Shown here piece after piece: positions 5,244 through 8,778 of a stretch of 64,000 nucleotides of DNA. The position numbers and the translations under genes were made by a program. Position 1 is the stretch's first letter, and each line of letters opens with the position of its first letter. The notes under the pieces are model-generated. The model had not been told where the DNA came from and made no database searches. It saw nothing but the letters and a program-made list of their open reading frames with translations. Source of the stretch: an uncultured SAR86 cluster bacterium (GTDB taxonomy: Bacteria > Pseudomonadota > Gammaproteobacteria > Magnimaribacterales > D2472); contig CACKNK010000002.1 in the NCBI GenBank assembly GCA_902601475.1, forward strand, positions 62,001 to 126,000, given 5' to 3'.

Positions 5244-5340
5244 ATATGATAGAAATAAAAGTTAATAATAGTACGCCTGTAAAATTAATTAAACGTTTAA
5301 TTGTCTCTATCTCTTAAAAACTATAAAATACCGAAACTTA

Positions 5341-5400
5341 AAAAGTGATTTGTCCCTGCTTGCATACTTAAACTGCTAAATGGGGGCGCCTTTAAGGTGC
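5341..5400 (+). ncRNA. candidate SAM-II/SAM-V-type riboswitch with downstream RBS-sequestering hairpin, upstream of metF
   Basis: AAGT-GATTT-GTCCC-TGC-TTGCA-TACTT-AAAC-TGCTAAAT-GGGGG: short P1 (5343-5346 with 5366-5369), pseudoknot UCCC 5353-5356 with GGGG 5382-5385, then hairpin GCGCC-TTTAA-GGTGC 5386-5400 covering the AAGG Shine-Dalgarno, next to S-adenosylmethionine-cycle genes. Confidence 0.6.
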
Positions 5401-5406
5401 AGAATA

Positions 5407-6216
5407 ATGAATATATCTTTAGAATTTTTTCCACCAGCAAACTTAGACTTTAATGCTCTATTGTCTGAATATAAAAAACTAGAGCATCTTGATCCATCTT
5501 TTATTTCGGTTACTTATGGAGCAGGTGGAGGTGCAGAAAATAAATCACTAGAACTTATAAAGGCACTTAAAAAATATAATCTGGACATCGCTGCTCACAT
5601 CACCCTTGTTAACAAAAGCATTGATGATTTAGAAAAAATAGTCTCAGATTTTGCGAAACTTGGAGTAAAAAAATTTGTTGCATTGAGAGGCGACAGTCCA
5701 GAGGGAAAATTTAAGCAGCATCCTAACGGATTTTTTAATACTTCAGACTTTGTGGAGTTTCTTAACAATAAAAATTTTGAAGTTATTGTTTCGGCATATC
5801 CAGAACCACATCCAGACTCCAAAGGGTTTGATTTTGATTTACAGCTTCTTAAAAATAAATCTGAATCTGGGGCAAAAAAAGCCATTACGCAGTTTTGCTT
5901 TAGCAAAGATGACTATGAAAGGTTAATTGAAACTGTTCTAAAGGAAAATATTGAAGTAGAGGTCATACCTGGAATTATGCCAATTTATAACATAGAAAAT
6001 ATAACAAGAATGGCAGAAAAATGCGGTACTAAAGTTCCACCAAATATCATCAACAAGTTTGGAAATGATGATATATCAAATCAAAAGTATGCTATTGAAA
6101 TTTGTAATGAACAGCTGGACTTTTTATCTGAGTTGGGCTGCCAAAAATTTCATTTTTATACACTTAACAAATCTTATTTAATCAATAAAATTTTTAGAGA
6201 AAGGAGTTTATTATGA
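5407..6216 (+). CDS. metF: methylenetetrahydrofolate reductase
   Basis: [28 protein letters not shown] motifs; start moved from 5380 to the ATG at 5407 that follows the SD. Confidence 0.92.
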
Positions 6217-7367
6217 GTTATATATTTACATCAGAATCTGTTTCAGAAGGTCATCCAGATAAAGTTTGCGATCAAATATCAGATGCAATCTTAGATGCAT
6301 ACTTAAAAGAGGATCCGGACAGCAGAGTGGCTTGCGAAACTCTTATTAAAAATAATATTGTTGTTGTTGCAGGAGAGATTACCTCTAAAGGAAACCCGAA
6401 TCTTGAGCCAGTGATAAGAAATACAATAAATTCTATTGGTTATGATAATGATGACTTAGGATTTAATGGATCAAATTGTGAAATTCAAAATCATATTTTT
6501 CAGCAATCTCCAGATATTGCTCAAGGCGTAAATGAGGGTGAAGGTGAGAATCTAGAGCAAGGAGCTGGCGACCAAGGCCTGATGTTTGGATATGCTTGTA
6601 AAGAAAATGAAGCTCTTATGCCTGCACCCATAGATTTATCACATCAATTGGTTAAAAAGCAGTCTGAGCTAAGAAAAAATGGTAGCTTAGATTGGTTAAG
6701 ACCTGATGCAAAAAGCCAAGTAAGTGTTATATATGAGGATAATGGTAAATCTATAAAAGGCCTATCAGCAATTGTATTATCAACTCAACATGATGAGGGT
6801 ATTTCTCAGGACGACTTAAAAGAGGCTGTTTTAGAAGAAATAATTAAGCCTGTGATTCCATCAAATTGGCTATTAGATGAAACTAAGATCTTTATTAATC
6901 CTACCGGAAAATTTGTTATTGGAGGTCCTGTTGGAGACTGTGGGCTTACTGGAAGAAAGATAATTGTAGATACATATGGTGGTATGGCGCGTCATGGTGG
7001 CGGTGCATTTTCAGGCAAAGATCCATCAAAAGTAGACAGATCAGCAGCATATGCTGCTAGATACGTAGCAAAAAATATTGTTGCGGCTGGTCTTGCTGAG
7101 TGGTGTGAGGTTCAGGTTTCATATGCTATTGGTGTTGCAGAACCAACCTCAATTAATGTAAACACATTTGACAGTGGAAAAATTGATCAAACTGAAATAG
7201 AGTCGATGGTGCGTGAGGTTTTTGATCTTAGACCAAAAGGAATTATAAAAATGCTTGATTTAAAAAGGCCAATCTATCAAGATACGGCTGCTTATGGGCA
7301 TTTTGGTCGTGAAGATGACTCCTTTACATGGGAAAAAGTAGATCAAATAGAAGCCTTAAAGTCTTAA
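6213..7367 (+). CDS. metK: S-adenosylmethionine synthetase
   Basis: [61 protein letters not shown]. Confidence 0.97.
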
Positions 7368-7383: not shown

Positions 7384-8778
7384 ATGAGCGAAGATTATAA
7401 AGTTGCAGATATAAATCTTGCAGAGTTTGGCAGAAGAGAGATATCTCTAGCAGAAAATGAAATGCCTGCACTTATGGCACTAAGAGATAAATATAAAGAT
7501 GATCAGCCTCTCAAAGGAGCAAAAATTTTAGGCTGCATTCATATGACAGTTCAAACTGCTGTATTAATGGAAACTTTGCAAGAACTTGGTGCAGAGCTTA
7601 GATGGTCTTCGTGTAATATTTTCTCAACTCAAGATCATGCTGCAGCTGCTATGGCTGCAAAAGGTATACCTACATTTGCTTGGAAAGGTGAAACTGAAGA
7701 AGAGTATGAGTGGTGCCTTGAACAAACGATATTAAAAGATGGACAACCATGGGATGCGAACATGATTCTTGATGACGGCGGAGATTTAACCGGGTTAATA
7801 CACCAACAATATCCAGAAATGTTGGAGAGAATACATGGTGTTTCAGAAGAGACAACAACTGGTGTTCATCGTTTAAAAGAACTGCTTAGAAACGGAGAAC
7901 TAAAAATTCCAGCTATTAATGTTAATGACTCAGTTACTAAGTCAAAAAATGATAATAAATATGGTTGCAGGCATAGTCTGAACGATGGCATTAAAAGAGC
8001 TACCGATATGTTGCTGTCAGGAAAAAAAGCACTTGTTATAGGCTATGGTGATGTTGGGAAAGGCTCTGCATTAAGTTTAGCCCAAGAAGGAATGATCGTC
8101 CGTGTAGTCGAGTCTGATCCGATATGCGCCATGCAGGCTTGTATGGATGGCTTTGAAGTTGTTTCAACATATGAGAATGGTGTTGTATCAAGAAAAGATG
8201 AGGACATTAATAAAACTTTGCTACAAGATACAGATTTGTTAGTTACTACTACCGGTAATGTAAATGTTTGTGATGCACCGATATTGAGAAATATTAAAAA
8301 TACTGCCTTGGTTTGTAATATTGGTCACTTTGATAACGAAATTGATACTGCATATATGAGAGATGCATGGCATTGGGAAGAGATAAAACCTCAAGTTCAC
8401 AGAGTTTTTAGAGATGCGACCCCAGACGAAGAGCCTGATCTGAGCAGTAAAAATTACATCGTTTTATTGGCAGAAGGCAGATTGGTAAATCTTGGAAATG
8501 CAACTGGTCATCCTAGTAGGATTATGGATGGATCATTTGCAAACCAAGTCCTTGCTCAAATTTTCTTATATGAACAGGCTTTCGCAAACATTAATGATGA
8601 TGAGAAAAAGAAAGAGTTAATTACTGTAAAGGTTCTACCAAAAAAACTTGATGAGGAAGTTGCTGAATTAATGGTTCAAGGGTTTGGAGGAACCATTACT
8701 AAGCTTACTCAGGAGCAGGCTGATTATATTCATGTCCCTGTAGATGGCCCGTTTAAAGAAGAAGAATACAAGTATTAG
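7384..8778 (+). CDS. ahcY: adenosylhomocysteinase
   Basis: [27 protein letters not shown]-terminal [15 protein letters not shown] supports start at 7384 rather than 7372. Confidence 0.96.

Follow-up and report, generated by a model that had tools for sequence, protein, structure and literature searches.

The leader of metF in a bacterium of SAR86, a group of ocean bacteria that is abundant, mostly uncultivated and small in genome size, is probably a compact SAM-II-type aptamer followed by a Shine-Dalgarno (SD) hairpin of its own; together they would form an OFF switch that controls the SAM cycle at the level of translation. The leader lies in the window (the whole 64,000-nucleotide stretch analysed), which belongs to a genome of 1.35 Mb at 81% completeness. 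If this reading is true, the SAM cycle of SAR86 is under riboswitch control, and surveys based on Rfam undercount the SAM-II class.

Anatomy and setting of the metF leader

The leader precedes metF, metK and ahcY on the plus strand, with a transketolase gene diverging on the minus strand. Pfam analysis confirmed that these downstream genes are those of the SAM cycle, as stated in the first-pass annotation, and the ATG of metK overlaps the stop codon of metF as ATGA. A predicted promoter would start the RNA near position 5336, ~7 nt ahead of the helix P1; the consensus scan behind it gave no more sites than in shuffled sequences. In most relatives, AT-rich -10-like boxes are seen by eye at a similar distance.

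The first-pass annotation had placed the element at 5341-5406; the sequence it quoted is present but in fact spans 5343 (AAGT) to 5409, 2-3 bases away, and thus ends with the metF start codon ATG (5407-5409). With the same offset, the ordered SAM-II/SAM-V elements that it listed are all found (Table 1). They form an H-type pseudoknot of P1 and P2, in which P2a extends P2. The proposed P1 holds, and so does the UCCC:GGGG pairing, but the latter belongs to the P2a extension, whereas the ligand-binding pseudoknot helix is P2, composed of UUGCA with UGC-U-AA. Between the 3' strands of P1 and P2 there is no P3 stem-loop; the sequence has a linker of only four residues, AAAC, instead.

Table 1. Features of the metF leader and its operon, in window positions
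Feature	Position	Strand	Basis or remark
Predicted promoter (TTGTCT, 17 nt, TAAAAT)	5301-5329	+	consensus scan
P1 5' strand AAGU	5343-5346	+	pairs with 5366-5369
Third strand of P2 triplex, GAUUUG (GATTTG)	5347-5352	+	invariance in core alignment; SAM-V crystal-structure equivalence
TCCC	5353-5356	+	sequence
P2a 5' strand CCCUG	5354-5358	+	pairs with 5381-5385
P2 5' strand UUGCA (TTGCA)	5360-5364	+	invariant in 30 of 30 tabulated homologues
P1 3' strand ACUU	5366-5369	+	homologue alignment
AAA	5370-5372	+	sequence
L3 linker AAAC, 4 nt	5370-5373	+	sequence; A-rich linker conserved
P2 3' strand UGC-U-AA	5374-5379	+	invariant in homologues
GCTAAA	5375-5380	+	sequence
P2a 3' strand UGGGG	5381-5385	+	homologue alignment
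G-run	5382-5386	+	sequence
P4 hairpin GCGCCUUUAAGGUGC	5386-5400	+	directly after P2a; homologue tail folding
GCGCC versus GGTGC	5386-5390, 5396-5400	+	sequence
AAGG	5394-5397	+	sequence
metF SD AAGGUG	5394-5399	+	P4 3' arm, 7 nt ahead of start codon
metF (methylenetetrahydrofolate reductase)	5407-6216	+	Pfam PF02219, E 3e-66
metK (SAM synthetase)	6213-7367	+	Pfam PF00438, PF02772, PF02773
ahcY (S-adenosylhomocysteine hydrolase)	7384-8778	+	Pfam PF05221, PF00670

The leader was mapped onto the crystal numbering of SAM-V (PMC6061858), with further SAM-V features drawn from PMC2704228. In this mapping, U19-A23 correspond to 5360-5364 and U44-A49 to 5374-5379, with U47 at U5377 and A50 at A5380. 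The GAUUUG segment supplies the equivalents of U8-U9-U10-G11, and U5377 is equivalent to the residue that pairs with the adenine of SAM in SAM-V (PMC6061858). Where SAM-V has the pair C24:G43, the leader has U5365 and C5373, and this U/C mismatch is invariant among the 23 sequences of the core alignment.

The pattern GATTTG-N3..20-TTGCA-N5..30-GCTAAA has a single match in the window, compared to 0.01 expected from shuffles, and two in the 1.35-Mb genome, the second being upstream of metH. The folding energy of the single metF leader is ordinary (z -0.22), and the case for a riboswitch therefore rests on comparison.

Conservation, covariation and class

R1, a covariance model based on 23 homologues, matched 32 genomes of the SAR86 order at E<=1e-4. 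It also matched five further genomes, all of the genus g3, at E 0.002-0.016; two g3 members were read (L140 and L141), and both have the element directly ahead of metK. The strong matches that were read precede metF or, after its loss, metK, with the exception of L143, a second and weaker match in its genome (G040) that is followed by only a 23-aa frame. On a quick MetK tree, which often has low internal support, metF seems to have been lost more than once. No frame of 90 aa or more begins downstream of several weak R1 matches in four genomes (G023, G025, G032 and G036; TTTGAnCCTGATTGCATTGCTAAATTAGG), which probably represent coding sequence. Among 369 genomes of the class, R1 had two matches: the genome of the window and, outside SAR86, G330, where the match is weak, looks like chance and adjoins no recognisable metF, metK or other methionine gene. 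The strict pattern recovered 27 stretches from a collection of 84,980 species, nearly all labelled SAR86, and was found in no viral contig; apart from SAR86, the element occurs in a few records of uncultured Gammaproteobacteria and in an alphaproteobacterial MAG that is probably misbinned. Overall, the element is essentially absent from the other sampled Gammaproteobacteria.

Comparison of the related leaders revealed strongly conserved elements with covarying P1 and P2a. The MetF proteins are ~50-57% identical across genera, and the aptamer core has a mean identity of 87% with 32 invariant columns. The pocket, consisting of the GAUUU third strand, UUGC and GCUAAA, is invariant in the core alignment, as are the counterparts of the residues that contact SAM in SAM-V and SAM-II; a few distant members carry GCUAAG or GAUUUC. 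In the six GCUAAG variants, the change of A50 to G gives a C18:G50 pair. As the pocket is that of SAM-II and SAM-V, the ligand should be SAM.

Base pairs were tabulated in a wider alignment of 30 sequences made by hand. In P2a, the pair 14:54 appears as CG, UA or GC, 13:55 as UA, CG, UG or GC, and 15:53 as CG or UA. The first pair of P1 is UA, UG or CG in 29 of the 30 homologues and the next two pairs are kept in 29 of 30, with an outer fourth pair in about half of them; P1 is poor in one member (L029 of G049). P2 shows no covariation of its own because it never varies. The pseudoknotted structure pairs 94.4% of the cells, compared to 30-52% in slid registers, and its covariation score and number of double-changed cells were reached by none of 500 shuffles, an outcome that counts as support and not as a probability, since the sequences are related. 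Altogether, the very strong conservation, the covariation of P1 and P2a and the conserved SD hairpin support the earlier assignment to the SAM-II/SAM-V superfamily, which had been made without a choice between the two classes.

No Rfam family reached its gathering threshold in the whole window. At permissive settings, the best match at the leader is SAM_alpha (RF00521), which spans the whole model at 16.4 bits against a gathering threshold of 36, followed by the SAM-II long loop family (RF01726) at 15.5 bits against 44. Thus, the Rfam comparison suggested by the first-pass annotation yields SAM-II matches below threshold only, and for SAM-V (RF01826) a whole-genome scan gave nothing at the site even at E<=10. 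The element shares with SAM-II the GAUUUG third strand, the (C)UUGCA:GCUAAA helix P2, the P2a extension, the lack of P3 and a gene of methionine/SAM metabolism, but differs in a P1 of 3-4 bp (consensus 6 bp), an L3 of 4 nt (consensus about 10 nt) and a P4 hairpin directly after P2a. The presence of P2a, the absence of P3 and the fact that only SAM-II models score bring it nearer to SAM-II, and it very likely works like SAM-II. Nevertheless, the short P1 and very short L3 put it outside both Rfam models, and together with the low score indicate that it is not a plain member of RF00521, RF01726 or RF01826.

Membership in ordinary SAM-V is very improbable. The ligand-contact positions, a P1 of ~4 bp, an A-rich run just ahead of UGCUAAA, a marine host and a translational context, the last being presumed for the SAR86 element, are all features of SAM-V; however, RF01826 has no match at the site, P3 is absent, P2a is longer (~4-5 bp), and the SD sits in the separate hairpin P4, in contrast to SAM-V, where it overlaps a short P2a. 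Even less credible is a conserved DNA site, for instance of a methionine repressor, or a chance likeness with no RNA switch at all. A near-invariant core sequence alone is indeed no proof of RNA structure, but compensatory changes occur in P2a, P1 and P4, the element lies downstream of a promoter-like box, and a SAM-II-like core recurs at other methionine genes.

Meyer et al. 2009 (PMC2704228) stated the presence of SAM-II in Alpha-, Beta- and Gammaproteobacteria, and of the genomes covered by a regulon survey, only those of Rhizobiales and Rhodobacterales had SAM_alpha (PMC4239095). A literature search, with subscription papers mostly outside its reach, found no report of a SAM riboswitch in SAR86, which is no proof of absence. 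The compact element is best read as a SAM-II-type variant within a wider set of SAM-II-like leaders in SAR86, ahead of metH, metY and homocysteine methyltransferase genes.

The SD hairpin and the mode of control

The GCGCC/GGUGC hairpin noted in the first-pass annotation, directly after the pseudoknot strand and with the SD inside, is kept in nearly all relatives; in the window, the SD begins 8 nt past the end of the P2a strand. The tails of 27 homologues, which are related sequences, have a mean minimum free energy of -5.6 kcal/mol compared to -1.85 kcal/mol after shuffling (z -12). The loop of P4 is variable in length and sequence, and its arms change together in L034 (CGUC:GGCG) and L054 (UGCC:GGCA); P4 is weak in L159 and L161. 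Placement of the SD in the 3' arm is common to other metF-bearing leaders, and in L160, from G040, which has lost metF, P4 with AAGGUG stands directly ahead of the metK ATG. In many other metF-less genomes, P4 is kept ~60-90 nt ahead of metK, along with an apparent remnant of the metF start, and in some of these leaders a CCUC from the remnant pairs with the metK SD; simple burial of the SD is no explanation there. The g3 leaders have no hairpin, and their SD directly follows P2a (GUUUC:GAAAC), like in a translational SAM-II. These natural versions, with metF, without metF and without the hairpin, offer a direct test of how the aptamer acts on the ribosome.

We propose that P1 (3-4 bp) and P2 stack on each other, with GAUUUG lying in the major groove of P2 as a third strand, SAM held inside the triplex so that its adenine rests on U5377, and P2a continuing P2. 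When SAM is plentiful, the pseudoknot would lock and fix P2a, on which P4 would stack with the SD buried, leading to less translation of metF and, via the overlapping start, of metK. When SAM is scarce, the third strand would be free and P2a would fray, so that the ribosome could open P4. The modelled cost of opening the SD without ligand is 2.5-4.3 kcal/mol in the metF-bearing leaders. As P4 can form without ligand, the switch is not visible in the sequence, and the part of the proposal that is least certain is the coupling via P4. The leaders were also inspected by eye for an alternative helix that joins the 5' arm of P4 to the 5' strand of P1, and such pairing is not conserved.

The compact variant might instead switch by competition, a possibility that we hold tentatively. 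In the absence of SAM, U5351-G5352 and their neighbours at the end of the third strand would lengthen P2a so that it reaches into the base of the hairpin holding the SD and weakens that hairpin; with SAM, the triplex would capture this strand and the SD hairpin would close. The extended P2a appears in the RNAfold minimum-energy folds of some homologues (such as L003, L017, L037 and L072), but its pairing is short and not uniform among homologues.

It is rather unlikely that SAM is bound while control is exerted by ribosome standby at a distance, mRNA stability or premature termination, with P4 merely capping P2a. The P4 hairpins retained 60-90 nt ahead of metK in metF-less genomes would fit such control, as would the SAM-II riboswitch of Sinorhizobium meliloti metA, for which initiation takes place 74 nt downstream of its SD and the mRNA is stabilised (PMC9373788). 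This riboswitch is translational with an SD in the expression platform, as proposed for the SAR86 element, and its distant initiation recalls the metF-less leaders; it differs in the gene and in that its SD is occluded by the pseudoknot, whereas in SAR86 a following hairpin would do so. However, no intrinsic-terminator-like site was found near the window leader, and the 3' arm of P4 lies at SD distance from the start codon in the metF-bearing genomes and in L160. A quite improbable alternative is that the same fold senses another ligand, such as S-adenosylhomocysteine (SAH), given that the operon includes ahcY and that other proteobacteria use SAH riboswitches for ahcY (PMC4239095). Nevertheless, the U/A positions equivalent to the selectors of the SAM sulfonium and adenine are invariant, SAM-V excludes SAH through those contacts (PMC6061858), and only metK follows closely in several genomes.

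Related SAM-II-like leaders in SAR86

At relaxed thresholds, RF00521 matched 57 of the 107 genomes of the family, only two of them above the cut-off; matches below the cut-off also occur in two of 14 control genomes, and weak matches thus need context. Many of the sites precede metH, metY-type Cys/Met enzymes, homocysteine methyltransferases, OmpW or a fatty-acid-desaturase-family protein, and three such sites, at metF, metH and metY, lie in the genome that contains the window. This wider set is mostly missed by Rfam.

The metH leader of the same genome has a SAM-II-like element (L002:1486-1560, G000:C5) that scores 29.8 bits to RF00521 (gathering 36), with relatives L012, L039 and L150. Its downstream CAUAGGAU could pair with the aptamer segment GAUCCUAU; this possible alternative fold is retained by several of the relatives. 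Another SAM-II-like element, L133 (G000:C1:123221-123296, minus strand), has a GCGC-rich P1 of 5-6 bp and lies ahead of a gene for a metY-type Cys/Met PLP enzyme; its relatives are L041, L042 and L172, and the gene was Pfam-checked for L133.

The metY leaders L174 and L176 (family f4) have a compact aptamer with P1 UGCC:GGCA and the short linker UAAAC, and next to it a CUCC...GGAG hairpin that covers the SD; this is the architecture of the window's metF leader at another gene in distant SAR86. SAM-II-like elements also stand ahead of genes for OmpW-type outer membrane proteins (L175, L177 and L137, Pfam-checked for L137 only). In L175 and L177, and in L181 ahead of metY, a terminator-like hairpin and U-run come next, suggesting transcriptional control. 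The SAM-II-like aptamers of L134, L135, L138 and L149 precede a fatty acid desaturase-family membrane protein, an unexpected target for control by SAM, and L134 and L135 each have two tandem aptamers ~110 nt apart.

In other SAR86 genera, the metK leaders L136, L187, L189 and L192 have a version rich in U (GAUUUUU...UUUUUUGCA...GCUAAAAAA), whose P2 and P2a would make up a long U:A helix; it is possibly a degenerate or divergent form. In addition, two SAM-II-like aptamers lie back to back in G032:C3 (82277-82351, minus strand; 82430-82480, plus strand) and likewise in G021:C55, sharing one intergenic region between divergent metH and metF-metK.
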